A stretch of 64,000 nt of DNA from Saccoglossus kowalevskii (Eukaryota; Hemichordata; Enteropneusta; Harrimaniidae), in the NCBI RefSeq assembly GCF_000003605.2, contig NW_003158491.1, positions 1-64,000 on the forward strand, read 5' to 3'. Shown here in pieces: positions 1 through 24,640 of this stretch; position 1 is the stretch's first letter; every line of letters starts with the position of its first letter. The position numbers and the translations under genes are program-made. Under the pieces are notes generated by a model that was given only the letters and a program-made list of their open reading frames with translations, searched no databases and was not told the DNA's origin.

Positions 1-340
1 CATCATAAATGTATCGATAATGCCTCACATATAAGCAGATTATCACAACAGCCAACTGAAAATCGACAATAATTAGTTACAAAGTTGTGAAAAGCGATTG
101 TAAATTTGGTAGTTTCATTCGGAATTGGTACCTGTGATATCATATTAACAAGTCTCATAGTTAAAAGTTCAAAAATGTGAATAAATATTTTTGTTAAAAA
201 CTGTTAAATTACCGTACTGTTACACCAAGTATGTAGAGGTCATAGGTCAATTCTAGAAGTTACCTGTGCCAGCAATATCGATTTTAAAACATGCAAATAC
301 ATGAAATAGCGGCCAATTCGGCTTAATTTCAAATAATCCT

Positions 341-662
341 TGCAGATATGTGTTAGGTCACCGACAAATGTTTAAAGTAAAGCACAATCGGGCGTGGTTA
401 GTACTTGCATGGGAGACTCCCTCAGTAAACAAGCTGTTGAATTTTTTTTCATCACACACATGTAAAACATATAAAACAACGTTCCTGCATTCTTTCTTAC
501 TTGCAGATATGTGTTAGGTCACCGACAAATGTTAAAAGTAAAGCACAATCGGGCCTGGTTAGTACTTGCATGTGAGACTCCCTCAGTAAATAAGCTGTTG
601 AATTTTTTTTCATCACACACATGTAAAACATATAAAACAACGTTCCTGCATTCTTTCTTACT
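341..662 (+). repeat. 161-bp tandem duplication carrying two 5S-derived segments
   Basis: The segment from TGCAGATATGTG to TTCTTAC (341-501) is followed directly by a second copy (502-662), so this monomer has two 5S-like cores (396 and 557) and two oligo-T runs. The copies are not identical: the first has CGGGCGTGG and AAACAAG, the second CGGGCCTGG, GTGAGAC and AAATAAG. They have therefore diverged, or the second was supplied by another subfamily. The two junction edges share only CTTGCAG/ACTTGCAG-like bases. Confidence 0.9.
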
Positions 663-2684
663 GTGATGTCAATTATTTATAGCGGAAAATCGCGGAATCG
701 TTGTAACTATTTTAATTTAATAAAAAGTTTTCAAAATCCTTCTAATTTTCAAGAACAAGTTGTTTATGTCGTCGGCACGTAGTGGGTTTTAAGCTATTAA
801 CACACCGTTCAAAGTTGTTTAAAGTGATTGCAAAGTTGTGCAAAGTTATTACAAAGTTGGTAGATGTATTTGTATGTATGACCTAAGTTGTTGGCATATA
901 GAAACGCGCAGTTGTAAAGTCGACAAATTTAATAAAATCAGTTGAAAGCTGCCTATAGAAGTTCACATGAGCTGACTGTAAACTGTTAGAAAACAGGGTG
1001 CAAAGTTGAAAAAACGAACGAAATGTTGGCGAAGATGCTTGTATATTTATCCTAAGTCATTGTAATGACAACCCCGCAGTTAAATGTTGAAAACATTAAG
1101 TATATGTATCGATAATGCCTCATATATAGGCAGTTTATCACAACAGCCAATCGAAAAATCGACAAAAAATGGTTACAAAGTTGTAAAAAGCGATTGTAAA
1201 GTTGGTAGTTTCATTCGGAATTGGTACCTGTGATATCATATTAACAAGTCTCATAGTTAAAAGTTCGAAAATGTGAATAAATATTTTTGTTAAAAACTGT
1301 TTAAATTACCGTACTGTTACTCCAAGTATGTAGAGGTCATAGGTCAATTCTAGAAGTTACCTGTGCCAGCAATATCGATTTTTAAAACATGCAAAAACAT
1401 GAAAATAGCGGCCAATTCGGCTTAATTTCAAATAATCCTTGCAGCTATGTGGTTAGGTCACCGACAAATGTTTAAAGTAAAGCACAATCGGGCCTGGTTA
1501 GTAATTGCATGGGAGACTTCCTCAGTAAACAAGCTGTTGAATTTTTTTTCATCACACACATGTAAAACATATAAAACAACGTTTCTGCATTTTTTCTTAC
1601 TGTGATGTCAATCATTTATAGCGGAAAATCGCGGAATTGTTGTAACTATTTTAATTTAATAAAAAGTTTTCAAAATCCTTCTAATTTTCAAGAACAAGTT
1701 GTTTATGTCGTCGGCACGTAGTGGCTTTTAAGCTGTTAACACACCGTTCAAAGTTGTTTAAAGTGATTGCAAAGTTGTGCAAAGTTATTACAAAGTGAGT
1801 AGATGTATTCGTATGTATGACCTAAGTTGTTGGCATATAGAAACGCGCAGTTCTAAATCCAAAAATTTAATAAAATCAGTTGGAAGCTGCCTATAGATGT
1901 TCACATGAGCCTACTGTAAACTGTTAGAAAACAGGGTGCAAAGTTGAAAAAACGAACGAAATGTTGGCGAAGAAGATTGTGTATTTATCCTAAGTCATTG
2001 TAATGACAACCCCGCAGTTAAATGTTGAAAACATTAAGTAAATGTATCGATAATGCCTCATATATAAGCAGATTATCACAACAGCCAACCGAAAAATCGA
2101 CAAAAAATGGTTACAAAGTTGTGAAAAGCGATTGTAAAGTTGGTAGTTTCATTCGGAATTGGTACCTGTGATATCATATTAACAAGTCTCATAGTTAAAA
2201 GTTCGAAAATGTGAATAAATATTTTTGTTAAAAACTGTTAAATTACCGTACTGATACACCAAGTATGTAGAGGTCATAGGTCAATTCTAGAATTTACCTG
2301 TGCCAGCAATATCGATTTTAAAACATGCAAAAACATGAAATAGCGGCCAATTCGGCTTATTTTCAAATAATCCTTGCAGATATGTGGTTAGGGCACCTAC
2401 AAATGTTTAAAGTAAAGCACAATCGGGCGTGGTTAGTACTTGCATGGGAGACTCCCTCAGTAAACAAACTGTTGAATTTTTTTTCATCACACACATGTAA
2501 AACATATAAAACAACGTTCCTGCATTCTTTCTTACTGTGATGTCAATTATTTATAGCGCAAAATTGCGGAATTGTTGTAACTACTTTAATTTAATAAAAA
2601 GTTTTCAAAATCCTTCTAATTTTCAAGAACAAGTTGTTTATGTCGTCGGCACGTAGTGGGTTTTAAGCTGTTAACACACTGTTC

Positions 2685-2737
2685 AAGGTTGTTTAAAGTG
2701 ATTGCAAAGTTGTGCAAAGTTATTACAAAGTTGGTAG
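2685..2737 (+). repeat. Helically phased AAAGTT motifs (subrepeat A)
   Basis: Five AAAG(T) motifs begin at 2685 (one base changed in this copy), 2695, 2706, 2716 and 2727, giving intervals of 10, 11, 10 and 11 bp, an average of 10.5 bp. That equals the helical repeat of B-DNA. The same block follows CACACCGTTC in nearly every monomer. Phased short A-tracts of this kind are known to curve DNA and to influence nucleosome placement. That role is inferred here. Confidence 0.75.
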
Positions 2738-2866
2738 ATGTATTCGTATGTATGACCTAAGTTGCTGGCATATAGAAACGCACAGTTGTAAAGTCGACAA
2801 ATTTAATAAAATCAGTTGAAAGCTGCATATAGAAGTTCACATGAGCTGACTGTAAACTGTTAGAAA
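2695..2866 (+). repeat. Internal subrepeat A (~170 bp)
   Basis: The first of three diverged tandem subrepeats inside the monomer. It is anchored by AAAGTTGGTAG at 2727 and continues with GATGTATTCGTATG, ATGACCTAAGTTG, CGCAGTTGTAAAGTCGAC and AATTTAATAAAATCAG. It carries two more 10.5-bp AAAGTT motifs than subrepeat C. Boundaries are approximate because the copies are old. Confidence 0.6.
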
Positions 2867-2930
2867 ACAGGGTGCAAAGTTGAAAAAACGAACGAAATGT
2901 TGGCGAAGATGCTTGTATATTTATCCTAAG

Positions 2931-2942
2931 TCATTGTAATGA
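2931..2942 (+). other. Short dyad TCATT-GT-AATGA
   Basis: A perfect 5-bp inverted repeat with a 2-base centre. It recurs in nearly all monomers just before the GC-richer ACAACCCCGCAG. It is too short to claim a stable cruciform. It could be a protein-binding dyad, but there is no direct evidence of one. Confidence 0.4.
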
Positions 2943-2956
2943 CAACCCCGCAGTTA

Positions 2957-2971
2957 AATGTTGAAAACATT
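2957..2971 (+). other. Short dyad AATGTT-GAA-AACATT
   Basis: A perfect 6-bp inverted repeat around GAA, 14 bp after the preceding dyad and present in nearly every monomer. A few units lose it by substitution (for example GTTGAACACATT at 3897 and 37690, and ATTGAAAAC at 27390, 40488 and 49838). A smaller dyad, CTGTT-AGAA-AACAG, lies upstream at 2857-2870. Confidence 0.4.
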
Positions 2972-3039
2972 AAGTATATGTATCGATAATGCCTCATATA
3001 TAAGCAGATTATCACAACAGCCAATCGAAAAATCGACAA

Positions 3040-3215
3040 AAAATGGTTACAAAGTTATGAAAAGCGATTGTAAAGTTGGTAGTTTCATTCGGAATTGGTA
3101 CCTGTGATATCATATTAACAAGTCTCATAGTTAAAAGTTCGAAAATGTGAATAAATATTTTTATTAAAAATTGTTAAATTACCGTACTGTTACTCCAAGT
3201 ATGTAGAGGTCATAG
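3040..3215 (+). repeat. Internal subrepeat C (~175 bp)
   Basis: The third subrepeat, anchored by AAAGTTGGTAG at 3072, 177 bp after the B anchor and 345 bp after the A anchor. AAAG motifs at 3051, 3061 and 3072 again show 10- and 11-bp spacing. It continues GTTTCATTCGGAATTGG, ACCTGTGATATCATATT, AGTTAAAAGTTCGAAAATG and GAATAAAT, matching A in order. The following ~130 bp may hold a fourth, more decayed copy (TTACCTGTGCCAGC). I could not establish that by eye. Confidence 0.6.
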
Positions 3216-3358
3216 GTCAATTCTAGAAGTTACCTGTGCCAGCAATATCGATTTTAAAACATGAAAAAACATGAAATAGCAACCAATTCGGCTTAATTTC
3301 AAATAATCCTTGCAGCTATGTGGTTAGGTCACCGACAAATGTTTAAAGTAAAGCACAA

Positions 3359-3388
3359 TCGGGCCTGGTTAGTACTTGCATGGGAGAC
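3359..3388 (+). promoter_or_regulatory. Box C / intermediate element-like Pol III internal promoter core
   Basis: This is the best preserved stretch of the 5S-derived segment. Against the animal 5S internal control region only one base differs (TTGCATGG for TTGGATGG). The copy at 20310 has the canonical TTGGATG. Known 5S biology assigns TFIIIA contacts to box A, the intermediate element and box C. Whether TFIIIA binds here is inference, since box A is only partly kept. Subfamily variants change the intermediate-element region: CGGGCGTGG in many units, CGTGCGTGG at 4303, 19216, 24991, 40898, 61118, 62054 and 62987, and CGGCCGTGG at 8956 and 9890. Confidence 0.5.
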
Positions 3389-3412
3389 TCCCTCAGTAAA
3401 CAAGCTGTTGAA

Positions 3413-3420
3413 TTTTTTTT
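3413..3420 (+). terminator. Oligo-T run in the position of the 5S terminator
   Basis: Eight T follow the 5S-like 3' end, the place where RNA polymerase III stops on real 5S genes. Run length varies between units, from an interrupted TTTATTTT (for example cores 4303, 17344, 19216, 24991, 41835, 60182-62987) or TTTGTTTT (14554, 15483, 39966) up to about 11 T near 50288. Even the interrupted forms keep four consecutive T, the usual minimum for Pol III. Use as a terminator is inferred from position only. Confidence 0.4.
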
Positions 3421-6400
3421 CATCACACACATGTAAAACATATAAAACAACGTTCCTGCATTTTTTCTTACTGTGATGTCAATCATTTATAGCGGAAAAT
3501 CGCGGAATTGTTGTAACTATTTTAATTTAATAAAAAGTTTTCAAAATCCTTCTAATTTTCAAGAACAAGTTGTTTATGTCGTCGGCACGTAGTGGGTTTT
3601 AAGCTGTTAACTCACCGTTCAAAGTTGTTTAAAGTGATTGCAAAGTTGTGCAAAGTTATTACAAAGTTGGTAGATGTATTCGTATGTATGACCTAAGTTG
3701 TTGGCATATAGAAACGCGCAGTTCTAAAATCGACAAATTTAATAAAATCAGTTGGAAGCTGCCTATAGATGTTCACATGAGCTGACTGTAAACTGTTAGA
3801 AAACAGGGTGCAAAGTTGAAAAAACGAACGAAATGTTGGCGAAGATACTTGTATATTTATCCTAAGTCATTGTAATGACAACCCCGCAGTTAAATGTTGA
3901 ACACATTCAGTAAATGTATCGATAATGCCTCATATATAAGCAGATTATCACAACAGCCAACCGAAAAATCGACAAAAAATGGTTACAAAGTTGTGAAAAG
4001 CGATTGTAAAGTTGGTAGTTTCATTCGGAATTGGTACCTATGATATCATATTAACAAGTCTCATAGTTAAAAGTTCGAAAATGTGAATAATTGTTTTTTT
4101 TAAATACTGTTAAATTACCGTACTTTTACTCCAAGTATGTAGAGGTCATAGGTCAATTCTAGAAGTTACCTGTGCCAGCGATATCGATTTTATAACATAC
4201 AAAAACATGAAATAGCCGCCAAATCGGTTTAAATTCAAATAATTGATGCACCTGTGTGGTTAGGATACCGACAAATGTTTAAAGTAAAGCATAATCGTGC
4301 GTGGTTAGTACTTGCATGGGAGACTCCCTCAGTAAACAAGTTGTTGAATTTATTTTCATCACACACATGTAAAACATATAAAACAACGTTCCTGCATTCT
4401 TTCTTACTGTGATGTCAATTATTTATAGCGGAAAATTGCGGAATTGTTGTAACTATTTTAATTTAATAAAAAGTTTTCAAAATCCTTCTAATTTTCAAGA
4501 ACAAGTTGTTTATGTCGTCGGCACGTAGTGGGTTTTAAGCTGTTAACACACTGTTCAAAGTTGTTTAAAGTGATTGCAAAGTTGTGCAAAGTTATTACAA
4601 AGTTGGTAGATGTATTCGTATGTATGACCTAAGTGTGGGCATATAGAAACGCGCAGTTCTAAAGTCGACAAATTTGATAAAATCAGTTGAAAGCTGCCTA
4701 TAGATGTTCACATGAGCTGACTGTAAACGGTTAGAAAACAGGGTGCAAAGTTGAAAAAACGAACGAAATGTTGGCGAAGAAGCTTGTATATTTATCCTAA
4801 GTCATTGTAATGACAACCCCGCAGTTACATGTTGAAAACATTAAGTAAATGTATCGATAATGCCTCATATATAAGCAGATTATCACAATAGCCAACCGAA
4901 AAATCGACAAAAAATAGTTACAAAGTTGTGAAAAGCGATTGTAAAGTTGGTAGTTTCATTCGGAATTGGTTCCTGTGATATCATATTAACAAGTCTCATA
5001 GTTAAAAGTTCGAAAATGTGAATAAATATTTTTGTTAAATACTGTTAAATTACCGTACTGTTACTCCAAGTATGTAGAGGTCATAGGTCAATTCTAGAAG
5101 TTACCAGTGCCAGCGATATCGATTTTAAAACATGCAAAAACATGAAATAGCCGCCAAATCGGCTTAATTTCAAATAATTCATGCACCTGTGTGGTTAGCT
5201 CACTGACAAATGTTTAAAGTAAAGCACAATCGGGTGTGGTTAGTACTTGCATGGGAGACTCCCTCAGTAAACCAGCTGTTGAATTTTTTTTCATCACACA
5301 CATGTAAAACATATAAAACAACGTTCCTGCATTCTTTTTTACTGTGATGTCAATCATTTATAGTGGAAAATCGCGGAATTGTTGTAACTATTTTAATTTA
5401 AGTTTTCAAAATCCTTCTAATTTTCAAGAACAAGTTGTTTATGTCGTCGGCACGTAGTGGGTTTTAAGCTGTTAACACACTGTTCAAAGTTGTTTAAAGT
5501 GATTGCAAAGTTGTGCAAAGTTATTAGAAAGTTGGTAGATGTATTCGTATGTATGACCTAAGTTGTTGGCATATGGAAACGCGCAGTTCTAAAGTCGACA
5601 AATTTAATAAAATCAGTTGGAAGCTGCCTATAGATGTTCACATGAGCTGACTGTAAACTGTTAGAAAACAAGGTGCAAAGTTGAAAAAACGAACGAAATG
5701 TTGGCGAAGAAGCTTGTATATTTATCCTAAGTCATTTTAATGACAACCCCGCAGTTAAATGTTGAAAACATTAAGTAAATGTATCGATAATGCCTCATAT
5801 ATAAGCAGATTATCACAACAGCCAACCGAAAAATCGACAAAAAATAGTTACAAAGTTGTGAAAAGCGATTGTAAAGTTGGTAGTTTCATTCGGAATTGGT
5901 ACCTGTGATATCATATTAACAAGTCTCATAGATAAAAGTTCGAAAATGTGAATAAATATTTTTGTTAAATACTGTTAAATTACCGTACTGTTACTCCAAG
6001 TATGTAGAGGTCATAGGTCAATTCTAGAAGTTACCAGTGCCAGCGATATCGATTTTAAAACATGCAAAAACATGAAATAACCGCCAAATCGGCTTAATTT
6101 TAAATAATCCATGCAGCTGTGTGGTTAGGTCACTGACCAATGTTTAAAGTAAAGCACAATCGGGCATGTTTAGTACTTGCATGGGAGACTCCCTCAGTAA
6201 ACAAGCGGTTGATTTTTTTTTCATCACACACATGTAAAACATATAAAACAACGTTCCTGCATTCTTTCTTACTGCGATGTCAATCATTTATAGTGGAAAA
6301 TCGCGGAATTGTTGTAACTATTTTAATTTAATAAAACGTTTTCAAAATCCTTCTAATTTTCAAGAACAAGTTGTTTATGTCGTCGGCACGTAGTGGGTTT

Positions 6401-8092
6401 TAAGCTGTTAACACACCGTTCAAAGTTGTTTAAAGTGATTGCAAAGTTGTGCAAAGTTATTACAAAGTTGGTAGATGTATTCGTATGTATGACCTAAGTT
6501 GTTGGCATATAGAAACGCGCAGTTGTAAAGTCGACAATTTTAATAAAATCAGTTGGAAGCTGCCTATAGATGTAAACATGAGCTGACTGTAAACTGTTAG
6601 AAAACAGGGTGCAAAGTTGAAAAACGAACGAAATGTTGGCGAAGAAGCTTGTATATTTATCCTAAGTCATTGTAATGACAACCCCGCAGTTAAATGTTGA
6701 AAACATTAAGTAAATGTATCGATAATGCCTCATACATAAGCAGATTATCACAACAGCCAACCGAAAAATCGACAAAAAATAGTTACAAAGTTGTGAAAAG
6801 CGATTGTACAGTTGGTAGTTTCATTCGGAATTGGTACCTGTGATATCATATTAACAAGTCTCATTGTTAAAAGTTCGAAAATGCGAATAAATATTTTTGT
6901 TAAATACTGTTAAATTACCGTACTGTTACTCCAAGTATGTAGAGGTCATAGGTCAATTCTAGAAGTTACCTGTGCCAGCGATATCGATTTTAAAACATGC
7001 AAAAACATGAAATAGCCGCCAAATCGGCTTAATTTCAAATAATTCATGCACCTGTGTGGTTAGGTCACCGACAAATGTTTAAAGTAAAGCACAATCGGGC
7101 GTGGTTAGTACTGGCATGGGAGACTCCCTCAGTAAACGAGCTGTTGAATTTGTTTTCATCAAACACATGTAAACCATATAAAACAACGTTCCTGCATTCT
7201 TTCTTACTGTGATGTCAATCATTTATAGTGGAAAATCGCGGAATTGTTGTAACTATTTTAATTTAATAAAAAGTTTTCAAAATCCTTCTAATTTTCAAAA
7301 ACAAGTTGTTTATGTCGTCGGCACGTAGTGGGTTTTAAGCTGTTAACACACCGTTCAAAGTTGTTTAAAGTGATTGCAAAGTTGTGCAAAGTTATTACAA
7401 AGTTGGTAGATGTATTCGTATGTATGACCTAAGTTGTTGGCATATAGAAACGCGCAGTTGTAAAGTCGACAAATTTAATAAAATCAGTTGAAAGCTGCCT
7501 ATAGATGTTCACATGAGCTGACTGTAAACTGTTAGAAAACAGGGTGCAAAGTTGAAAAAACGAACGAAATGTTGGCGAAGATACTTGTATATTTATCCTA
7601 AGTCATTGTAATGACAACCCCGCAGTTAAATGTTGAAAACATTAAGTATATGTACCGATAATGCCTCATATATAAGCAGATTATCACAACAGCCAACCGA
7701 AAAATCGACAAAAAATGGTTACAAAGTTGTGAAAAGCGATTGTAAAGTTGGTAGTTTCATTCGGAAATGGTACCTGTGATATCATATTAACAAGTCTCAT
7801 AGTTAAAAGTTCGAAAATGTGAATAAATATTTTTGTTAAAAACTGTTAAATTACCGTACTGTTACTCCAAGTATGTAGAGGTCATAGGTCAATTCTAGAA
7901 GTTACCTGTGCCAGCGATATCGATTTTAAAACATGCAAAAACATGAAATAGCCGCCAAATCGGCTTAATTTCAAATAATCCATGCAGCTGTGTGGTTAGG
8001 TCACCGACAAATGTTTAAAGTAAAGCACAATCGGGCGTGGTTAGTACTTGCATGTGAGACTCCCTCAGTAATCGAGCTGCTGAATTTTTTTT

Positions 8093-9943
8093 CATCACAC
8101 ACATGTAAACCATATTAAACAACGTTCCTGCATTCTTTCTTACTGTGATGTCAATCATTTATAGTGGAAAATCGCGGAATTGTTGTAACTATTTTAATTA
8201 TAAAAAGTGTCAACATCTTCTAATTTCAAGAACAAGTTGTTTATGTCGTCGGCACGTAGTGGGTTTTAAGCGTTCAAAATTGTTTAAAGTGATTGCAAAG
8301 TTGTGCAAAGTTATTACAAAGTTGGTAGATGTATTTGTATGTATGACTAAGTTGTTGGCATATAGAAACGCGCAGTTGTAAAGTCGACAAATTTAATAAA
8401 ATCAGTTGGAAGCTGCCTATCGATGTTTACATGAGCTGACTGTAATCTGTTAAAAAACAGGGTGCAAAGTTGAAAAAACGAACGAAATGTTGGCGAAGAA
8501 GCTTGTATATTTATCCTAAGTCATTGTAATGACAACCCCGCAGTTAAATGTTGAAAACATTAAGTAAATGTATCGATAATGCCTCATATATAAGTAGATT
8601 ATCACAACAGCCAACCGAAAAAGCGACAAAAAATGGTTACAAAGTTGTGAAAAGCGATTGTAAAGTTGGTAGTTTCATTCGAAATTGGTACCTGTGATAT
8701 CATATTAACAAGTCTCATAGTTAAAAGTTCGAAAATGTGAATAAATATTTGTTTAAATACTGTTAAATTACCGTACTGTAACTCCAAGTATGTAGAGGTC
8801 ATAGGTCAATTCTAGAAGTTACCTGTGCCAGCGATATCGATTTTAAAACTTCCAAAAACATGAAATAGCCACCAATTCGGCTTAATTTTAAATAATCCAT
8901 GCACCTGTGTGGTTAGGTCACCGACAAATGTTTAAATTAAAGCACAATCGGCCGTGGTTAGTACTTGCATGGGAGACTCCCTCAGTAAACAAGCTGTTGA
9001 ATTTGATTTCATCACACACATGTAAAACATATAAAACAACGTTCCTGCATTCTTTCTTACTGTGATGTCAATCATTTATAGCGGAAAATCGCGGAATTGT
9101 TGTAACTATTTTAATTTAATAAAAAGTTTTCAAAATCCTTCTAATTTTCAAGAACAAGTTGTTTATGTCGTCGGCACGTAGTGGGTTTTAAGCTGTTAAC
9201 ACACCGTTAAAAGTTGTTTAAAGTGATTGAAAATTGTGCAAAGTTATTACAAAGTTGGTAGATGTATTTGTATTTATGACCTAAGTTGTTGGCATATAGA
9301 AATGCGCAGTTGTAAAGTCGACAAATTTAATAAAATCAGTTGGAAGCTGCCTATCGATGTTTACATGAGCTGACTGTAAACTGTTAGAAAACCGGGTGCA
9401 AAGTTGAAAAAACGAACGAAATGTTGGCGAAGAAGCTTGTATATTTATCCTAAGTCATTGTAATGACAACCCCGCAGTTAAATGTTGAAAACATTAAGTA
9501 AATGTATCGATAATGCCTCATATATAAGCAGATTATCGCAACAGCCAACCGAAAAAGCGACAAAAAATGGTTACAAAGTTGTGAAAAGCGATTGTAAAGT
9601 TGGTAGTTTCATTCGGAATTGGTACCAGTGATATCATATTAACAAGTCTCATAGTTAAAAGTTCGAAAATGTGAATAAATATTTGTTTAAATACTGTTAA
9701 ATTGCCGTACTGTAACTCCAAGTATGTAGAGGTCATAGGTCAATTCTAGAAGTTACCTGTGCCAGCGATATCGATTTTAAAACTTCCAAAAACATGAAAT
9801 AGACACCAATTCGGCTTAATTTTAAATAATCCATGCACCTGTGTGGTTAGGTCACCGACAAATGTTTAAATTAAAGCACAATCGGCCGTGGTTAGTACTT
9901 GCATGGGAGACTCCCTCAGTAAACAAGCTGTTGATTTTTTTTT
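8093..9943 (+). repeat. Two class IV monomers (ACTTCCAA variant)
   Basis: These adjacent units share ACTTCCAAAAACATG (8848, 9782) where most units have ACATGCAAAAACATG. They also share CACCAATTCGG, TTTTAAATAATCC, AAATTAAAGCAC and CGGCCGTGG in the 5S-like part. Related forms occur at 11641 and 52945. The first unit is the shortest otherwise normal one (917 bp) because of many small deletions near 8190-8280. Confidence 0.75.
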
Positions 9944-12900
9944 CATCACACACATGTAAAACATATAAAACAACGTTCCTGCATTCTTTCTTACTGTGAT
10001 GTCAATCATTTATAGCGGAAAATCGCGGAATTGTTGTAAATATTTTAATTTAATAAAAAGTTTTCAAAATCCTTCTAATTTTCAAGAACAAGTTGTTTAT
10101 GTCGTCGGCACGTAGTGGGTTTTAAGCTGTTAACACACCGTTCAAAGTTGTTTAAAGTGATTGAAAAGTTGTGCAAAGTTATTACAAAGTTGGTAGATGT
10201 CTTTGTATTTATGACCTATGTTGTTGGCATATAGAAATGCGCAGTTGTAAAGTCGACAAATTTAATAAAATCAGTTGGAAGCTGCCTATCGATGTTTACA
10301 TGAGCTGACTGTAAACTGTTAGAAAACAGGGTGCAAAGTTGAAAAAACGAACGAAATGTTGGCGAAGAAGCTTGTATATTTATCCTAAGTCATTGTAATG
10401 ACAACCCCGCAGTTAAATGTTGAAAACATTAAGTAAATGTATCGATAATGCCTCACATATAAGCAGATTATCACAACAGCCAACTGAAAATCGACAATAA
10501 TTAGTTACAAAGTTGTGAAAAGCGATTGTAAAGTTGGTAGTTTCATTCGGAATTGGTACCTGTGATATCATATTAACAAGTCTCATATTTAAAAGTTCGA
10601 AAATGTGAATAAATATTTTTGTTAAAAACTGTTAAATTACCGTACTGTTACTCCAAGTATGTAGAGGTCATAGGTCAATTCTAGAAGTTACCTGTACCAG
10701 CAATATCGATTTTAAAACATGCAAAAACATGAAATAGCGGCCAATTCGACTATTTAAATAATCCTTGCAGCTATGTGGTTAGTTCACCGACAAATGTTTA
10801 AAGTAAAGCACAATCGGGCCTGGTTAGTACTTGCATGGGAGACTCCCTCAGTAAACAAGCTGTTGATTTTTTTTTCATCACACACATGTAAAACATAAAA
10901 AACAACGTTCCTGCATTCTTTCTTACTGTGATGTCAATTATTTATAGTGGAAAATCGCGGAATTGTTGTAACTATTTTAATTTAATAAAAGGTTTTTAAA
11001 ATCCTTCTAATTTTCAGACAGTTGTTTATGTCGTCAGCACGTAGTGGGTTTAGCTATTAACACACCGTTCAAGTTGTTTAAGTGATTGTAAGTTGTGCAA
11101 AGTTATTACAAAGTTGGTAGATGTATTTGTATGTATGACTTAATTTGTTGGCATATAAAAACGCGCAGTTGTAAAGTCGACAAATTTAATAAAATCAGTT
11201 GGAAGCTGCCTATAGATGTTCACATGAGCTGACTGTAAACTGTTAGAAAACAGTGTGCAAAGTTGAAAAAACGAACGAAATGTTGGCGAAGAAGCTTGTA
11301 TATTTATCCTAAGTCATTGTAATGACAACCCCGCAGTTGAATATTGAAAACATTAGGTAAGTGTATCGATAATGCCTCATATATAAGCAGATTATCACAA
11401 CAGCCAACCGAAAAATCGACAAAAATTAGTTACAAAGTTGTGAAAAGGGATTGTAAAGTTGGTAGTTTCATTCGGAATTGGTACCTGTGATATCATATTA
11501 ACAAGTCGCATAGGTAAAAGTTCGAAAATGTGAATAAATACTTTTTTAAATACTGTTAAGTTACCGTACTGTTACTCCAAGTATGTAGAGGTCATAGGTC
11601 AATTCTAGAAGTTACCTGTGCCAGCGATATCGATTTCAAAACTTCCAATAACATGAAATAGCCACCAATTCGGCTTAATTTCAAATAATCCATTCAGCTG
11701 TGTGTTTAGTTCACTGACAAATGTTTAAATTAAAGCACAATCGGGCGTGGTTAGTACTTGCATGGGAGACTCCCTCAGTAAACAAGCTGTTGATTTTTTT
11801 TTTCATCACACACATGCAAAACATATAAAACAACGTTCCTGCATTCTTTTCTTACTGTGATGTCAATCATTTATAGCGGAAAATCGCGGAAGTGTGTAAC
11901 TATTTTAATTTAATAAAAAGTTTTCAAAATCCTTCTAATTTTCAAGAACAAGTTGTTTATGTCGTCGGCACGTAGTGGGTTTTAAGCTGTTAACACACCG
12001 TTCAAAGTTGTTTAAAGTGATTGCAAAGTTGTGCAAAGTTATTACAAAGTTGGTAGATGTATTTGTATGTATGACCCAAGTTGTTGGCATATAGAAACGC
12101 GCAGTTGTAATGTCGACAAATTTAATAAAATCAGTTGAAATCTGCCTATAGATGTTCACAAGAGCTGACTGTAAACTGTTAGAAAACAGGGTGCAAAGTT
12201 GAAAAACGAACGAAATGTTGACGAAGAAGCTTGTATATTTATTCTAAGTCATTGTAATGACAACCCCGCAGTTAAATGTTGAAAATATTAAGTAAATGTA
12301 TCGATAATGCCTCATATATAAGCAGATTATCACAACAGCCAACCGAAAAATCGACAAAAATTAGTTATAAAGTTGTGAAAAATCGATTGTAAAGATGGTA
12401 GTTTCATTCGGAATTGCTACGTGTGATATCAAATTAACAAATCTCATAGTTAAAAGTTCGGAAATGTGAATAAATATTTTTTTAAATACTGTTAAATTAC
12501 CGTACTGTTACTCCAAGTATGTAGAGGTCATAGGTCAATTCTAGAAGTTACCTGTGCCAGCGATATCGATTTTAAAACATGCAAAAACATGAAATAGCCG
12601 CCAAATCGGCTTAATTTCAAATAATTCATGCACCTGTGTGGTTAGGTCACCGACAAATGTTTAAAGTAAAGCACAATCGGGCGTTGTTAGTACTTGCATG
12701 GGAGACTCCCTCAGTAAACAAGCTGTTGATTTTTTTTTCATCACACACATGTAAAACATATAAAACAACGTTCCTGCATTCTTTCTTACTGTGATGTCAT
12801 CATTTATACCGGGAAATCGCGGAATTGTTGTAACTATTTTAATTTAATAAAAAGTTTTCAAAATCCTTCTAATTTTCAAGAACAAGTTGTTTATGTCGTC

Positions 12901-13949
12901 GGCACGTAGTGGGTTTTAAGCTGTAAACACACCGTTCAAAGTTGTTTAAAGTGATTGCAAAGTTGTGCAAAGTTATTACAAAGTTGGTAGATGTATTCGT
13001 ATGTATGACCTAAGTTGTTGGCATATAGAAACGCGCAGTTGTAAAGTCGACAATTTTGATAAAATCAGTTGAAAGCTGCCTATAGATGTTCACATGAGCT
13101 GACTGTAAACTGTTAGAAAACAGGGTGCAAAGTTGAAAAAACGAACGAAATGTTGGCGAAGAAGCTTGTATATTTATCCTAAGTCATTGTAATGACAACC
13201 CCGCAGTTAAATGTTGAAAACATTAAGTAAATGTATCGATAATGCCTCAAATATAAGCAGATTATCACAACAGCCAACCGAAAAAGCGACAAAAAATGGT
13301 TACAAAGTTGTGAAAACCGATTGTAAAGTTGGTAGTTTCATTCGGAATTGGTACCTGTGATATCATATTAACAAGTCTCATAGTTAAAAGTTCTATAATG
13401 TGAATAAATATTTTTGTTAAATACTGTTAAATTACCGTACTGTTACTCCAAGTATGTAGAGGTCATAGGTCAATTCTAGAAGTTACCTGTGCCAGCAATA
13501 TCGATTTTAAAACATGCAAAAACATGAAATAGCCGCCAAATCGGCTTAATTTCAAATAATCCTTGCAGCTATGTGGTTAGGTCACCGACAAATGTGTAAG
13601 GTAAAGCACAATGGGGCCTGGTTAGTACTTGCATGGGAGACTCCCTCAGTAAACGAGTTGTTGAATTTTTTTTCATCACACACATGTAAAACATATAAAA
13701 CAACGTTCCTTCATTCTTTCGTACTGTGATGTCAATCATTTATAGTGGAAAATCGCGGAATTGTTGTAACTATTTTAATTTAATAAAAAGTTTTCAAAAT
13801 CCTTCTAATTTTCAAGAACAAGTTGTTTATGTCGTCGGCACGTAGTGGGTTTTAAGCTGTTAACACACCGTTCAAAGTTGTTTAAAGTGATTGCAAAGTT
13901 GTGCAAAGTTATTACAAAGTTGGTAGATGTATTCGTATGTATGACCTAA

Positions 13950-15650
13950 GTTGTTGGCATATAGAAACGCGCAGTTGTAAAGTCGACAAATTTAATAAAA
14001 TCAGTTGGAAGCTGCCAATAGATGTTCACATGAGCTGACTGTAAACTGTTAGAAAACAGGGTGCAAAGTTGAAAAACGAACGAAACGTTGGAGAAGAAGC
14101 TTGTATATTTATCCTAAGTCATTGTAATGACAGCCCCGCAGTTAAATGTTGAAAACATTAAGTAAATGTATCGATAATGCCTCATATATAAGCAGATTAT
14201 CACAACAGCCAACCGAAAAATCGACAAAAATTAGTTACAAAGTTGTGAAAAGCGATTGTAAAGTTGGTAGTTTCATTCGGAATTGGTACCTCTGATATCA
14301 TATTAACAAGTCTCATAGTTAAAAGTTCGAAAATGTGAATAAATATTTTGTTAAATATTGTTAAATTACCGTACTGTTACTCCAAGTATATAGAGGTCAT
14401 AATTCAATTCTTGAAGTTACCTGTGCCAGCGATATCGATTTTAAAACATGCAAAAACATGAAATAGCCGCCAAATCAGCTTAATTTCAAGTAATCCTTGC
14501 AGCTATGTGGTTAGGTCACCGACAAATGTTTAAAGTAAAGCACAATCGGGCGTGGTTAGTACTTGCATGGGAGACTCCCTCAGTAAACAAGCTGTTGAAT
14601 TTGTTTTCATCACACACATGTAAAACATATAAAACAACGTTCTTGCATTCTTTTTTACTGTGATGTCAATCATTTATAGTGGAAAATCGCGGAATTTGTT
14701 GTAACTATTTTAATTTAAGTTTTCAAAATCCTTCTAATTTTCAAGAACAAGTTGTTTATGTCGTCGGCACGTAGTGGGTTTTAAGCTGTTAACACACCGT
14801 TCAAAGTTGTTTAAAGTGATTGCAAAGTTGTGCAAAGTTATTACAAAGTTGGTAGATGTATTCGTATGTATGACCTAAGTTGTTGGCATATAGAAACGCG
14901 CAGTTGTAAAGTCGACAAATTTAATAAAATCAGTTGGAAGCTGCCAATAGATGTTCACATGAGCTGACTGTAAACTGTTAGAAAACAGGGTGCAAAGTTG
15001 AAAAACGAACGAAACGTTGGAGAAGAAGCTTGTATATTTATCCTAAGTCATTGTAATGACAGCCCCGCAGTTAAATGTTGAAAACATTAAGTAAATGTAT
15101 CGATAATGCCTCATATATAAGCAGATTATCACAACAGCCAACCGAAAAATCGACAAAAATTAGTTACAAAGTTGTGAAAAGCGATTGTAAAGTTGGTAGT
15201 TTCATTCGGAATTGGTACCTCTGATATCATATTAACAAGTCTCACAGTTAAAAGTTCGAAAATGTGAATAAATATTTTGTTAAATACTGTTAAATTACTG
15301 TACTGTTACTCCAAGTATATAGAGGTCATAATTCAATTCTTGAAGTTACCTGTGCCAGCGATATCGATTTTAAAACATGCAAAAACATGAAATAGCCGCC
15401 AAATCAGCTTAATTTCAAGTAATCCATGCAGCTATGTGGTTAGGTCACCGACAAATGTTTAAAGTAAAGCACAATCGGGCGTGGTTAGTACTTGCATGGG
15501 AGACTCCCTCAGTAAACAAGCTGTTGAATTTGTTTTCATCACACACATGTAAAACATATAAAACAACGTTCTTGCATTCTTTTTTACTGTGATGTCAATC
15601 ATTTATAGTGGAAAATCGCGGAATTGTTGTAACTATTTTAATTTAAGTTT
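13950..15650 (+). repeat. Adjacent near-identical monomers, 929-bp offset
   Basis: Private variants occur twice 929 bp apart: CGAAACGTTGGAG (14081, 15010), GACAGCCCCG, CCTCTGATATC, TATATAGAGGTCATAATTC, TTTGTTTTCATC, GTTCTTGCATTC and a 6-bp deletion giving ATTTAAGTTTTC. The identity fades after about 15,650. A very recent local duplication by unequal exchange or replication slippage is the likely cause. The ATTTAAGTTTTC deletion is also present near 5397. Confidence 0.85.
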
Positions 15651-16464
15651 TCAAAATCCTTCTAATTTTCAAGAACAAGTTGTTTATGTCGTCGGCACGT
15701 AGTGGGTTTTAAGCTGTTAACACACCGTTCAAAGTTGTTTAAAGTGATTACAAAGTTGTGCAAAGTTATTACAAAGTTGGTAGATGTATTCGTATGTATG
15801 ACCTAAGTTGTTGGCATATAGAAACGCGCAGTTGTAAAGTCGACAAATTTGATAAAATCAGTTGAAAGCTGCCTATAGATGTTGACATGAGCTGACTGTA
15901 AACTGTTAGAAAACAGGGTGCAAAGTTGAAAAACGAACGATATGTTGGCGAAGAAGCTTGTATATTTATCCTAAGTCATTGTAATGACAACCCCGCAGTT
16001 AAATGTTGAAAACATTAAGTAAATGTATCGATAATGCCTCATATATAAGCAGATTATCTCAACAGCCAACTGAAAAATCGACAAAAATTAGTTACAAAGT
16101 TGTGAAAAGCGATTGTAAAGTTGGTAGTTTCATTCGGATTTGGTTCCTGTGATTTCATATTAACAAGTCTCATAGTTAAAAGTTCGAAAATGTGAATAAA
16201 TATTTGTTTTCAATACTGTTAAATTACCGTACTGTTACTCCATGTATTTAGAGGTCATAGGTCAATTCTAGAAGTTACCTGCGCCAGCGATATCGGTTTT
16301 AAAACATGCAAAAACATGAAATAGACGCCAAATCGGCTTAATTATAAATAATCCATGCAGCTGTGTGGTTAGGTCACTGACAAATGTTTAAAGTACAGCA
16401 CAATCGGGCGTGTTTAGTACTTGCATGGGAGACTCCCTCAGTAAACAAGCGGTTGAATTTTTTT

Positions 16465-19269
16465 CATCACACACATGTAAAACATATAAAACAACGTTCC
16501 TGCATTCTTTCTTACTGTGATGTCAATCATTTATAGTGGAAAATCGCGGAATTGTTGTAACTATTTTAATTTAATAAAACGTTTTCAAAATCCTTCTAAT
16601 TTTCAAGAACAAGTTGTTTATGTCGTCGGCACGTAGTGGGTTTTAAGCTGTTAACACACCGTTCAAAGTTGTTTAAAGTGATTGCAAAGTTGTGCAAAGT
16701 TATTAGAAAGTTGGTAGATGTATTCGTATGTATGACCTAAGTTGTTGGCATATAGAAACGCGCAGTTCTAAAGTCGACAAATTTGATAAAATCAGTTGAA
16801 AGCTGCCTATAGATGTTCACATGAGCTGACTGTAAACTGTTAGAAAACAGTGTGCAAAGTTGAAAAACGAACGAAATGTTGGCGAAGAAGCTTGTATATT
16901 ATCATAAGTCATTGTAATGACAACCCCGCAGTTAAATGTTGAAAACATTAAGCAAATGTATCGATAATGCCTCACATAAAAGCAGATTATCACAACAGCC
17001 AACTGAAAATCGACAATAATTTGTTACAAAGTTGTGAAAAGCGATTGTAAAGTTGGTAGTTTCATTCGGAATTGGTACCTGTGATATCATATTAATAAGT
17101 CTCATAGTTAAAAGTTCGAAAATGTGAATAAATATTTTTGTTAAAAACTGTTAAATTACCGTACTGTTACTCCAAGTATGTAGAGGTCATAGGTCAATTC
17201 TAGAAGTTACCTGTGCCAGCAATATCGATTTTAAAACATGCAAAAACATGAAATAGCCGCCAAATCGGCTTAAATTCAAATATTTGATGCACCTGTGTGG
17301 TTAGGATATCGACAAATGTTTAAAGTAAAGCACAATCGGGCCTGGTTAGTACTTGCATGGGAGACTCCCACAGTAAACAAGCTGTTGAATTTATTTTCAT
17401 CACACACATGTAAAACATATAAAACAACGTTCCTGCATTTTTTCTTACTGTGATGTCAATCATTTATAGTGGAAAATCGCGGAATTGTTGTAACTATTTT
17501 AATTTAATAAAAAGTTTTCAAAATCCTTCTACATTTCAAGAACAAGTTGTTTATGTCGTCGGCACGTAGTGGGTTTTAAGCTATTAACACACCGTTCAAA
17601 GTTGTTTAAAGTGATTGCAAAGTTGTGCAAATTTATTACAAAGTTGGTAGATGTATTCGTAAGTATGACCTAAGTTGTTGGCATATAGAAACGCGCAGTT
17701 GTAAAGTCGACAAATTTAATAAAATCAGTTGAAAGCTGCTTATAGAAGTTCACATGAGCTGACTGTAAACTGTTAGAAAACAGTGTGCAAAGTTGAAAAA
17801 ACGAACGAAATGTTGGCGAAGAGGCTTGTATATTTATCCTAAGTCATTGTAATGACAACCCCGCAGTTAAATGTTGAAAACATTAAGTAAATGTATCGAT
17901 AATGCCTCATATATAAGCAGATTATCAAAAAACAGCCAACCGAAAAATCGACAAAAATTAGTTACAAAGTTGTGAAAAGCGATTGTAAAGTTGGTAGTTT
18001 CATTCGGAATTGGTACCTGTGATATCATATTAACAAGTCTCATAGTTAAAAGTTCGAAAATGTGAATAATTGTTTTTTTAAATACTGTTAAATTACCGTA
18101 CTGTTACTCCAAGTATGTAGAGGTCATTGGTCAATTCTAGAAGTTACCTGTGCCAGCGATATCGATTTTAAAACATGCAAAAACATGAAATAGCCGCCAA
18201 ATCGGCTTAAATTCAAATATTTGATGCACCTGTGTGGTTAGGATATCGACAAATGTTTAAAGTAAAGCACAATCGGGCCTGGTTAGTACTTGCATAGGAG
18301 ACTCCCTCAATAAACAAGCTGTTGAATTTATTTTCATCACACACATGTAAAACATATAAAACAACGTTCCTGCATTCTTTCTTACTGTGATGTCAATCAT
18401 TTATAGTGGAAAATCGCGGAATTGTTGTAACTATTTTAATTTAATAAAAAGTTTTCAAAATCCTTCTAATTTTCAAGAACAAGTTGTTTATTTCGTCGGC
18501 ACGTAGTGGGTTTTAAGCTGTTAACACACCGTTCAAAGTTGTTTAAAGTGATTGCAAAGTTGTGCAAAGTTATTACAAAGTTGGTAGATGTATTCGTATG
18601 TATGACATAAGTAGTTGGCATTTAGAAACGCGCAGTTGTAACGTCGACAATTTTAATAAAATCAGTTGAAAGCTGCCTATAGATGTTCACATGAGCTGAC
18701 TGTAAACTGTTAGAAAACAGTGTGCAAAGTTGAAAAACGAACGAAATGTTGGCGAAGAAGCTTGTATATTTATCCTAAGTCATTGTAATGACAACCCCGC
18801 AGTTAAATGTTGAAAACATTAAGTAAATGTGTCGATAATGCCTCATATATAAGCAGATTATCACAACAGCCAACCGAAAAATCGACAAAAATTAGTTACA
18901 AAGTTGTGAAAAGCGATTGTAAAGTTGGTAGTTTCAGTCGGAATTGGTACCTGTGATATCATATTAACAAGTCTCTTAGTTAAAAGTTCGAAAATGTGAA
19001 TAAATAGTTTTGTTAAATACTGTTAAATTACCATACTGTTACTCCAAGTATGTAGAGGTCATAGGTCAATTCTAGAAGTTACCTGTGCCAGCGATATCGA
19101 TTTTAAAACATGCAAAAACATGAAATAGCCGCCAAATCGGCTTAAATTCAAATAATTGATGCACCTGTGTGGTTAGGATACCGAGAAATGTTTAAAGTAA
19201 AGCACAATCGTGCGTGGTTAGTACTTGCATGGGAGACTCCCTCAGTAAACAAGCTGTTGAATTTATTTT
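16465..19269 (+). repeat. Three class III monomers (GGATA.CGAC, TTTATTTT variant)
   Basis: Three consecutive units share TTAAATTCAAATA, TTGATGCACC, GGTTAGGATA and an oligo-T run interrupted by A. The middle unit also has TTTCGTCGG in place of TGTCGTCGG, found again near 42045 in another class III unit. The first two carry GGATATCGAC and a CGGGCCTGG core, the third GGATACCGAG and CGTGCGTGG. The class is therefore itself subdivided. Confidence 0.75.
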
Positions 19270-20093
19270 CATCACACACATGTAAAACATATAAAACAAC
19301 GTTCCTGCATTTTTTCTTACTGTGATGTCAATCATTTATAGTGGAAAATCGCGGAATTGTTGTAACTATTTTAATTTAATAAAAAGTTTTCAAAATCCTT
19401 CTAATTTTCAAGAACAAGTTGTTTATGTCGTCGGCACGTGGTGGGTTTTAAGCTGTTACACACCGTTCAAGTTGTTTAAAGTGATTGCAAAGTTGTGCTA
19501 AGTTATTACAAAGTTGGTAGATGTATACGTATGTATGACCTAAGTTGTTGGCATATAGAAACGCGCAGTTCTAAAGTCCAAAAATTTAATAAAATCAGTT
19601 GGAAGCTGCCTATAGATGTTCACATGAGCCTACTGTAAACTGTTAGAAAACAGGGTGCAAAGTTGAAAAAACGAACGAAATGTTGGCGAAGAAGATTGTA
19701 TATTTATCCTAAATCATTGTAATGACAACCCCGCAGTTAAATGTTGAAAACATTCAGTAAATGTATCGATAATGCCTCATATATAAGCAGATTATCACAA
19801 CAGCCAACCGAAAAATCGACAAAAAATGGTTACAAAGTTGTGAAAAGCGATTGTAAAGTCGGTAGTTTCATTTGGAATTGGTACCTGTGATATCATATTA
19901 ACAAGTCTCATAGTTAAAAGTTCAAAAATGTGAATAAATATTTTTGTTAAAAACTGTTAAATTACCGTACTGTTACACCAAGTATGTAGAGGTCATAGGT
20001 CAATTCTAGAAGTTACCTGTGCCAGCAATATCGATTTTAAAACATGCATATACATGAAATAGCGGCCAATTCGGCTTAATTTCAAATAATCCT

Positions 20094-20415
20094 TGCAGAT
20101 ATGTGTTAGGTCACCGACAAATGTTTAAAGTAAAGCACAATCGGGCGTGGTTAGTACTTGCATGGGAGACTCCCTCAGTAAACAAGCTGTTGAATTTTTT
20201 TTCATCACACACATGTAAAACATATAAAACAACGTTCCTGCATTCTTTCTTACTTGCAGATATGTGTTAGGTCACCGACAAATGTTAAAAGTAAAGCACA
20301 TTCGGGCCTGGTTAGTACTTGGATGTGAGACTCCCTCAGTAAATAAGCTGTTGAATTTTTTTTCATCACACACATGTAAAACATATAAAACAACGTTCCT
20401 GCATTCTTTCTTACT
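20094..20415 (+). repeat. Second occurrence of the same 161-bp duplication
   Basis: The junction, copy length (161 bp) and internal variants (GTTAAAAGTAAAG, GTGAGAC, AAATAAG) match those at 341-662. The sequence just before both loci also shares TTCAAAAATGTGAAT and GTTACACCAAG. Farther upstream the two loci differ (CAACTGAAAATCGAC at base 51 against CAACCGAAAAATCGAC here). This points to a copied block, not two independent duplications. The core at 20310 reads TTGGATG, the canonical 5S form. Confidence 0.9.
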
Positions 20416-23099
20416 GTGATGTCAATTATTTATAGCGGAAAATCGCGGAATTGTTGTAACTATTTTAATTTAATAAACAGTTTTCAAAATCCTTCTAATT
20501 TTCAAGAACAAGTTGTTTATGTCGTCGGCACGTAGTGGGTTTTAAGCTATTAACACACCGTTCAAAGTTGTTTAAAGTGATTGCAAAGTTGTGCAAAGTT
20601 ATTACAAAGTTGGTAGATGTATTTGTATGTATGACCTAAGTTGTTGTCATATAGAAACGCGCAGTTGTAAAGTCGACAAATTTAATAAAATCAGTTGGAA
20701 GCTGCCTATAGATGTTTACATGAGCTGACTGTAAACTGTCAGAAAACAGGGTGCAAAGTTGAAACAACGAACGAAATGTTGGCGAAGAAGCTTGTATATT
20801 TATCCTAAGTCATTGTAATGACAACGCCGCAGTTAAATGTTGAAAACATTAAGTAAATGTATCGATAATGCCTCACATATAAGCAGATTATCACAACAGC
20901 CAACTGAAAATCGACAATAATTAGTTACAAAGTTGTGAAAAGCGATTGTAAAGTTGGTAGTTTCATTCGGAATTGGTACCTGTGATATCATATTAACAAG
21001 TCTCATAGTTAAAAGTTCGAAAATGTGAATAAATATTTTTGTTAAAAACTGTTAAATTACCGTACTGTTACTCCAAGTATGTAGAGGTCATAGATGAATT
21101 CTAGAAGTTACCTGTGCCAGCAATATCGATTTTAAAACATGCAAAAACATGAAATAGCCGCCAATTCGGCTTAGTTTCAAATAATCCATGCAGCTATGTG
21201 GTTAGGTCACCGACAAATGTTTAAAGTAAAGCACAATCGGGCGTGGTTAGTACGTGCATGGGAGACTCCCTCAGTAAACAAGCTGTTGAATTTTTTTTCA
21301 TCACACACATGTAAAACATATAAAACAACGTTCCTGCATTCTTTCTTTCTGTGATGTCAATCATTTATAGTGGAAAATCGCGGAATTGTTGTAACTATTT
21401 TAATTTAATAAAAAGTTTTCAAAATCCTTCTAATTTTCAAGAACAAGTTGTTTATGTCGTCGGCACGTAGTGGGTTTTAAGCTGTTAACACACCGTTCAA
21501 AGTTGTTTAAAGTGATTGCAAAGTTGTGCAAAGTTATTACAAAGTTGGTAGATGTATTCGTATGTATGACCTAAGTTGTTGGCATATAGAAACGCGCAGT
21601 TGTAAAGTCGACAAATTTAATAAAATCAGTTGAAAGCTGCCTATAGATGTTTACATGAGCTGACTGTAAACTGTTAGAAAACAGTGTGCAAAGTTGAAAA
21701 AACGAACGAAATGTTGGCGAAGAAGCTTGTATATTTATCCTAAGTCATTGTAATGACAACCCCGCAGTTAAATGTTGAAAACATTAAGTAAATGTATCGA
21801 TAATGCCTCATATATAAGCAGATTATCACAACAGCCAACCGAAAAAGCGACAAAAAATGGTTACAAAGTTGTGAAAACCGATTGTAAAGTTGGTAGTTTC
21901 ATTCGGAATTGGTACCTGTGATATCATATTAACAAGTCTCATAGTTAAAAGTTCGAAAATGTGAATAATTGTTTTTTTTTAAATACTGTTAAATTACCGT
22001 ACTGTTACTCCAAGTATGTAGAGGTCATAGGTCAATTCTAGAAGTTACCTGTGCCAGCGATATCGATTTTAAAACATGCAAAAACATGAAATAGCCGCCA
22101 AATCGGCTTAGTTTCAAATAATCCATGCACCTGTGTGGTTAGGTCACCGACAAATGTTTAAAGTAAAGCACAATCGGGCGTGGTTAGTACTTGCATGGGA
22201 GACTGCTTCAGTAAACAAGCTGTTGAATGTTTTTTATCACACTCATGTAAAACATATAAAACAACGTTCCTGCATTCTTTCTTACTGTGATGTGAATCAT
22301 ATATAGCGGAAAATCGCGGAATTGTTGTAACAATTTTAATTTAATAAAATGTTTTCAAAATCCTTCTAATTTGCAAGAACAAGTTGTTTATGTCGTCGGC
22401 ACGTAGTGGGTTTTAATCTGTTAACACACCGTTCAAAGTTGTTTAAAGTGATTGCAAAGTTGTGCAAAGTTATTACAAAGTTGGTAGATGTATTCGTATG
22501 TATGACCTAAGTTGTTGGCATATAGAAACGCGCAGTTGTAAAGTCGACAAATTTAATAAAATCAGTTGGAAGCTGCCTACCGATGTTTACATGAGCTGAC
22601 TGTAAACTGTTAAAAAACAGGGTGCAAAGTTGAGAAAACGAACGAAATGTTGGCGAAGAAGCTTGTATATTTATCCTAAGTCATTGTAATGACAACCCCG
22701 CAGTTAAATGTTGAAAACATTAAGTAAATGTATCGATAATGCCTCACATATAAGCAGATTATCACAACAGCCAACCGAATAATCGACAAATAATAGTTAC
22801 AAAGTTGTGAAAAGCAATTGTAAAGTTGGTAGTTTCATTCGGAATTGGTACCTGTGATATCATATTAACAAGTCTCATAGTTTAAAGTTCGAAAATGTCT
22901 ATAATTGTTTTTTTTAAATACTGTTAAATTACCGTACTGTAACTCCAAGTATGTAGAGGTCACAGGTCAATTCTAGAAGTTACCTGTGCCAGCGATATCG
23001 ATTTTAAAACATGCAAAAACATGAAATAGCGGCCAAATCGGCTTAATTTCAAATAATCCTTGCAGCTGTGTGGTTAGGTCACCGACAAATGTTTAAAGT

Positions 23100-24640
23100 A
23101 AAGCACAATCGGGCCTGGTTAGTACTTGCATGGGAGACTCCCTCAGTAAACAAGCTGTCGAATTTTTTTTTCATCACACACATGTAAAACATATAAAACA
23201 ACGTTCCTGCATTCTTTCTTACTGTGATGTCAATCATTTATAGCGGCAAATCGCGGAATTGTTGTAACTATTTTAATTTAATAAAAAGTTTTCAAAATCC
23301 TTCTAATTTTCAATAACAAGTTGTTTATGTCGTCGGCACGTAGTGGGTTTTAAGCTGTTAACACACCGTTCAAAGTTGTTTAAAGTGATTGCAAAGTTGT
23401 GCAAAGTTATTACAAAGTTAGTAGATGTATTCGTATGTATGACCTAAGTTGTTGGCATATAGAAACGCGCAGTTCTAAAGTCCAAAAATTTAATAAAATC
23501 AGTTGGAAGCTGCCTATAGATGTTCACATGAGCCTACTGTAAACTGTTAGAAAACAGGGTGCAAAGTTGAAAAAACGAACGAAATGTTGGCGAAGAAGCT
23601 TGTATATTTATCCTAAGTCATTGTAATGACAACCCCGCAGTTAAATGTTGAAAACATTAAGTAAATGTATCGATAATGCCTCATATATAAGCAAATTATC
23701 ACAACAGCCAACCGAAAAAGCGACAAAAAATGGTTACAATGTTGTGAAAACCGATTGTAAAGTTGGTAGTTTCATTCGGAATTGGTACCTGTGATATCAT
23801 ATTAACAAGTCTCATAGTTAAAAGTTCGAAAATGTCTATAAATATTTGTTTAAATACTGTTAAATTACCGTACTGTTACTGCAAGTATGTAGAGGTCATA
23901 GGTCAATTCTAGAAGTTACCTGTGCCAGCAATATCGGTTTTAAAACATGCAAAAACATGAAATAGCGGCCAATTCGGCTTAATTTCAAATAATCCTTGCA
24001 GCTATGTGGTTAGGTCACCGACAAATGTTTAAAGTAAACCACAATCGGGCCTGGTTAGTACTTGCATGGGAGACTCCCTCAGTAAACAAGCTGTCGAATT
24101 TTTTTTTCATCACACACATGTAAAACATATAAAACAACGTTCCTGCATTCTTTCTTACTGTGAGGTCAATCATTTATAGCGGCAAATCGCGGAATTGTTG
24201 TAACTATTTTAATTTAATAAAAAGTTTTCAAAATCCTTCTAATTTTCAATAACAAGTTGTTTATGTCGTCGGCACGTAGTGGGTTTTAAGCTGTTAACAC
24301 ACCGTTCAAAGTTGTTTAAAGTGATTGCAAAGTTGTGCAAAGTTATTACAAAGTTAGTAGATGTATTCGTATGTATGACCTAAGTTGTTGGCATATAGAA
24401 ACGCGCAGTTCTAAAGTCCAAAAATTTAATAAAATCAGTTGGAAGCTGCCTATAGATGTTCACATGAGCCTACTGTAAACTGTTAGAAAACAGGGTGCAA
24501 AGTTGAAAAAACGAACGAAATGTTGGCGAAGAAGCTTGTATATTTATCCTAAGTCATTGTAATGACAACCCCGCAGTTAAATGTTGAAAACATTAAGTAA
24601 ATGTATCGATAATGCCTCATATATAAGCAGATTATCACAA
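23100..24640 (+). repeat. Adjacent related monomers sharing rare variants, 936-bp offset
   Basis: Both units (cores 23117, 24053) carry AGCTGTCGAA, GCGGCAAATCGCGG, CAATAACAAG, AAAGTTAGTAG, TCTAAAGTCCAAAAATT and GAGCCTACTG. The later part of this variant set recurs at 50,370-50,700, about 28 units away. Single elements (TCTAAA.CCAAAAATT, GAGCCTACTG) appear near 1855-1915 and 19570-19635. Confidence 0.75.

Follow-up and report, generated by a model that had tools for sequence, protein, structure and literature searches.

The window, by which we mean the whole stretch of DNA analysed (64,000 nt, positions 1..64000 of contig C4758, which is 72,811 bp long, in the 572-Mb, 4830-contig assembly of Saccoglossus kowalevskii), is occupied by a satellite array whose monomers carry a stretch resembling the 5S rRNA gene. 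Its features are given below; the limits of the intermediate element (5S nt 67-72) and of box C (nt 80-90) come from Xenopus, and we take them to hold here.

1..64000, + strand: satellite array of ~936-bp monomers, 67 of them full, defined by core positions and monomer cutting; continues past the window
339..662, + strand: 161-bp module containing the 5S-like stretch, duplicated in tandem (97% matches; core spacing)
3259..4194, + strand: monomer discussed here, consensus positions 1-936, cut 100 bp upstream of the core
3346..3388, + strand: secure 5S homology, 5S nt 49-91, 38/43 in the consensus (register from the core at 3359)
3359..3388, + strand: 30-nt core, 5S nt 62-91; the consensus equals host 5S, and the copy here has C for G at nt 68
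3364..3369, + strand: position of the intermediate element, 5S nt 67-72 (register from the core)
3377..3387, + strand: start of box C, 5S nt 80-90 (register from the core)
3389..3415, + strand: weak similarity to 5S nt 92-118 (consensus comparisons with shuffles)
3413..3420, + strand: T8 run at the terminator position (read from the sequence)
3631..3803, + strand: subrepeat A of the ~172-bp triplication, consensus 373-545 (window position by register)
3804..3975, + strand: subrepeat B, consensus 546-717 (window position by register)
3976..4147, + strand: subrepeat C, consensus 718-889 (window position by register)
20092..20415, + strand: another tandem pair of the 161-bp module containing the 5S-like stretch (96% matches; core spacing)
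55751..56333, + strand: shortened monomer of 583 bp (monomer cutting)

We found 71 copies of the 5S-like core in the 64-kb window, all on the + strand, and none on the - strand with up to eight substitutions allowed. Successive cores lie 917-940 bp apart, except for two distances of 161 bp and one of 583 bp. None of these distances is twice the usual one, so every monomer contains the core, as the first-pass annotation had stated for its 5S-like stretch. The 67 monomers of 900-960 bp yield a 936-bp consensus and have a mean pairwise identity of 0.949. No higher-order repeat was found in the window: mean identity is 0.954 at distance 1 and 0.948-0.951 at the other distances up to 24. Such a long head-to-tail array of a non-coding repeat is what a 5S-derived satellite should look like. 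More than half of the monomer (consensus 373-889) consists of a ~172-bp unit that occurs three times in diverged form, recognized by self-comparison and alignment (self-comparison score 36, maximum 23 in 60 shuffles). This unit shows no similarity to host 5S: its copies score 8-9 against it, and the 5S stretch scores 36. The 161-bp module is duplicated at two distant places (339-662 and 20092-20415) with identical boundaries, which may reflect either copying between monomers or a recurrent breakpoint.

The core had been described as matching animal 5S at 29 of 30 positions, and indeed the copy at 3359-3388 differs at one position of 30 from human 5S and at one of 30 from host 5S. The array consensus agrees with the functional host gene throughout the core (30/30, nt 62-91) and at 38 of 43 positions over nt 49-91 (E about 5e-11). 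Local alignment to human 5S scores 51, and the maximum in 1000 dinucleotide shuffles is 30. This part of the monomer hence derives from a 5S gene. Host and human 5S differ at two of these 30 positions, and the consensus core has the host base at both; therefore, the source lies among the 5S genes of this lineage.

The homology falls short of the proposed ungapped match running from box A through to the 3' end. It is secure for nt 49-91 only. Similarity to nt 92-118 is weak both for the window consensus (11/27, as good in 89 of 5000 shuffles) and for the subfamily consensus (12/27, as good in 246 of 20000 shuffles and at 4 of 888 other placements); it keeps the register downstream of nt 91 and ends in the sole T8 run of the monomer. 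Homology of nt 1-48 is unsupported, being equalled by 441 of 5000 shuffles for the window consensus and by 1573 of 3000 for the subfamily consensus. Oligo-T at the position of the 5S terminator was borne out: 70 of the 71 copies have a run of at least four T within 45 nt after the core, a run found in 250 of the 936 consensus windows of that size. The single T8 run, which falls inside 38 of the 936, is located at the terminator position. As to the Pol III promoter core, which was said to be kept, the intermediate element and box C are retained at the consensus level and box A only in part; both elements are exact in 21 of the 71 copies, and 11 of the 71 are identical to the host core. With Rfam model RF00001, no match at the gathering score was obtained in the window or on three further loci of its family (L047, L049 and L051); the best score at a lax threshold was 19.7 bits versus the 38 needed (E 0.95, 3 kb searched).

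Genome-wide, the RF00001 search scored 47 5S genes, on contigs C3485, C2212 and C3801. The functional units measure ~1139 bp on C3485 and ~1579 bp on C2212 and C3801, which removes the ~935-bp monomer size as a sign of 5S rDNA. Genes of the two kinds of unit (L021, L022, L023) are near-identical, and their spacers differ outside the gene and the first 3' bases. Similarity to the spacers of real 5S repeats had been set beforehand as a test of direct descent, and it failed: when C3485, C2212 and C3801 were sampled with a single unit each, nothing but the gene match of 43 nt was significant. Otherwise these units gave just AT-rich matches of 18-23 nt (E 0.009 or worse), and the subfamily consensus matched the three spacers at E 0.11 or worse. 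Separate contigs, different unit lengths and unrelated spacers in the units read set the satellite apart from functional 5S repeats.

The first-pass annotation saw here a 5S rDNA array that decayed into a satellite. The 5S origin stands, given a core identical to the host gene, but descent of the whole unit is not supported. If both genes and spacers of an array had decayed into the ~936-bp satellite, one would expect a 5S fragment in each monomer, weak similarity to the 3' end of the gene and a T run in register, all of which are present, and the monomer length is of the same order as that of 5S units. Moreover, the two functional unit types are mutually unlike outside the gene, so the relevant spacer type might be extinct. 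However, none of the three spacers read shows significant similarity, and the ~172-bp triplication makes up more than half of the monomer. We consider whole-unit descent improbable and favour capture of a 5S fragment by another repeat over decay of an entire 5S array.

The family is abundant. A non-core pattern (consensus 603-632, up to 3 mismatches) matched 2756 genome sites, the reversed control matching none; with one monomer per site, this amounts to about 2.6 Mb. Contigs C2590, C829, C4210 and C2655 are of the window type (consensi 0.988-0.999 to the window consensus), while C324, C389, C482 and C525 represent diverged types (0.860-0.902), C389 and C482 being 0.922 identical to each other. 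C124, with 2 monomers only, was excluded from counts. Five of these first-compared contigs were chosen by an exact core match and are thus biased toward conserved cores. A rare-variant non-core pattern matched 13 sites and led to seven new contigs, in which 15 segments were read; two of them, C585 and C1642, form a sixth subfamily. The family comprises at least six subfamilies.

We compared divergence of the core with that of its surroundings. Among the window type W, C324, C389, C482 and C525, 74.9% of columns are invariant overall and 30/30 in the core. Of 907 30-nt windows, six reach 30/30, all of them overlapping the core (the 35-nt run was picked post hoc). Diverged columns among these five consensi number 0/30 in the core versus 226/871 outside the 5S stretch (P-value = 3.2e-4), and with the sixth subfamily included 3/30 in the core versus 68/178 in the flanks (P-value = 0.0018), both P-values being too small because columns and monomers have common ancestry. 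The remainder of the 5S-like stretch, with 9/35 diverged columns, behaves like the outside. When the monomer is cut into 30 non-overlapping blocks of 30 nt, the core block is free of diverged columns, against 4-14 in each of the remaining 29. Across six subfamilies, the intermediate element and box C together show 0/17 diverged columns (with the Xenopus element limits); one of the three diverged core columns, nt 64, depends on a three-way tie.

The contrast is not uniform. Overall, the core diverges less than the flanks, and it does so in five of the seven contigs chosen by the non-core pattern. In C585 and C1642 it has diverged like its flanks (12/90 versus 100/676; core 0.133 in each, flanks 0.141 and 0.150), and in C4051 both of two monomers carry G70T within the intermediate element. 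Inside the window array, the core is in fact more variable than the rest (0.0413 versus 0.0278). Selection on individual copies is thus not seen in this array, where only the 21 of 71 copies mentioned above have both elements exact. Constraint from folding of 5S RNA is unlikely for the ~936-bp family because, of the ten stem pairs read in the 3' half, each subfamily examined has lost three or four: 6-7/10 form in five subfamilies and 10/10 in the host, so that the stretch does not keep the stems of a functional 5S gene.

Conservation of the core might then reflect no function at all, only chance and sampling or conversion between repeats. The higher core variability within the array, the exceptional C585/C1642 subfamily, the changed intermediate element of C4051 and the biased choice of the first contigs all fit such an account, and conversion between satellite and 5S sequences could work only where similarity persists, that is, in the core. 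Contigs selected without regard to the core nevertheless give the same overall contrast, with mismatches to the window consensus at 21/450 core positions versus 652/3807 flank positions (15 monomers, 7 contigs). Also, a shared stretch of 30-43 nt is probably short for frequent conversion. We give this explanation a little less than an even chance. Array consensi that diverge little at the core despite ordinary or higher variation among copies would be expected if homogenisation favours the ancestral core, whether by binding or by conversion.

A further 5S satellite is present in the genome. Searching with a pattern for the 5' half of 5S gave 121 sites; among those listed are rDNA and a ~216-bp satellite on several contigs.

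L038-L046, on contigs C1639, C827, C242, C1528, C2140, C3892 and C111: loci of the ~216-bp satellite

The ~216-bp unit consists of a full-length 5S-like part plus ~96 bp. Single copies of its 5S part are 80 to about 92.5% identical to host 5S, and the consensus is about 91% identical. All 60 Rfam gathering matches fell on two ~216-bp loci, versus none on the three window-family loci. Compared with host 5S, 5 of 34 stem pairs are changed in the consensus; all five still pair, three of them by double change. Within the family, 93.5% of cells pair and four pairs show double changes (0 of 500 shuffles); as slid controls also give 2-4 double-change pairs and the host row was included among the sequences, this evidence is weaker than that at the consensus level. 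Possibly, the ~216-bp satellite is a second type of 5S gene, or a satellite born from one. TTAAAT lies about 30 nt upstream. At L038 (C1639:37300-43900), one 5S variant returns with a period of about 1510 bp (7 x 216), hinting that this satellite has a higher-order repeat.

The two families have only the 43-nt stretch in common, and one could suppose that the fragment in the ~936-bp monomer was taken from the ~216-bp satellite and not from rDNA. Within the aligned 43 nt, nt 61 is the lone difference between the ~216-bp consensus and rDNA; it is A in 113 of 116 window-family and 135 of 142 ~216-bp-family monomers and G in the rDNA units read. The match is 90.7% to the ~216-bp consensus and 88.4% to rDNA. 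Yet the argument turns on a single site, and spacer similarity to the ~216-bp unit is at chance level only. We regard this source as possible, leaning towards improbable; it would be compatible with capture in any case.

Another conceivable route is insertion into the satellite of a SINE3-type element, that is, a 5S-derived SINE of which the fragment would be the head. Core sites in the genome (8519) do exceed the sum of the 3914 sites matching a pattern for the ~216-bp or rDNA 3' half and the 2756 non-core sites, which leaves room for other carriers of the core, though the patterns differ and the counts need not add up. SINE heads typically retain the 5' part of 5S, whereas nt 1-48 are undetectable in the ~936-bp family, and the window contains no tRNA gene or tRNA-like part (ARAGORN). 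An origin of this kind is very improbable.

Overall, we suggest, with somewhat more confidence than doubt, that a complex ~936-bp satellite captured a fragment of a host-lineage 5S gene and then spread and split, its core being slowed in divergence. The fragment would have entered an existing repeat by recombination or insertion and would have been multiplied by unequal exchange or circular-DNA amplification, after which the satellite presumably spread and diversified into no fewer than six subfamilies. Slowing of the core (5S nt 62-91) by some cause acting at the DNA level is the least certain step. Binding of TFIIIA or a Pol III factor might favour arrays whose consensus retains the core; alternatively, the core may be converted by other genomic 5S copies, of which there are thousands.

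We also compared the family with known systems. PcP190 of hyloid frogs is a repeat of ~190 bp in which a 120-bp region resembles 5S (about 70% identity), and both regions are transcribed in two frogs (PMC11675491, PMC4201667, PMC4877019). Like PcP190, the window family has a region resembling the transcribed part of 5S, a spacer unlike known 5S spacers, a conserved versus a variable region and contigs apart from 5S rDNA (PMC11675491, PMC4201667, PMC4877019). It differs in its ~936-bp unit with 43 secure 5S nucleotides. The ~216-bp satellite, likened here by description, has the PcP190 layout but is about 91% identical to host 5S. The unit of 5SHindIII-DNA, a fish satellite, is likewise shorter than that of the window family. 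This 5S rDNA-derived satellite of Hoplias malabaricus, now HmaSat03, was earlier proposed to have a centromere function, for which a 2024 paper favours another satellite (PMC11369246). No spacer link was found in the window family. In pikes, 5S rDNA is amplified to very many copies in blocks, homogeneous and with potentially functional genes, a situation relevant to the ~216-bp family, while the window family has just a 43-nt remnant (PMC5437419). No ~936-bp 5S-bearing satellite was found in a search of open-access literature. The family is a 5S-derived satellite with a new layout.

Short conserved motifs in otherwise variable satellites have precedents in the CENP-B box and the 19-bp centromeric box of Meloidogyne; of these two, according to the cited paper, binding is known for the CENP-B box alone (PMC9673304). 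Any likeness would lie in a short motif that overall diverges less than its flanks, with exceptions in C585/C1642 and C4051; those two boxes are not 5S. The same 30-nt consensus core occurs in the ~936- and ~216-bp satellites, which have no common spacer. It could be a putative 5S internal-promoter box, with TFIIIA or some other Pol III factor binding to it, that marks or transcribes the arrays and leaves the rest free to change; we hold this to be unlikely. If true, it would be the 5S counterpart of the CENP-B box. Frog and fish 5S-derived satellites are known, and the cause of conservation of their 5S part is posed as a question in the literature (PMC4201667, PMC11675491). Here, the 5S part is reduced to the internal-promoter core inside a long repeat, several subfamilies make it possible to weigh divergence against variation within arrays, and an independent ~216-bp 5S satellite is present in the same genome; together, these features make selection for a protein site versus conversion testable.

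Apart from the satellites, we noted a mitochondrial COX1 piece at L078 (C4830:13900-14860). It contains in-frame TGA and, in the piece read, no AGA or AGG. ATA occurs at what we take to be isoleucine sites, and one AAA is found at a presumed lysine site.
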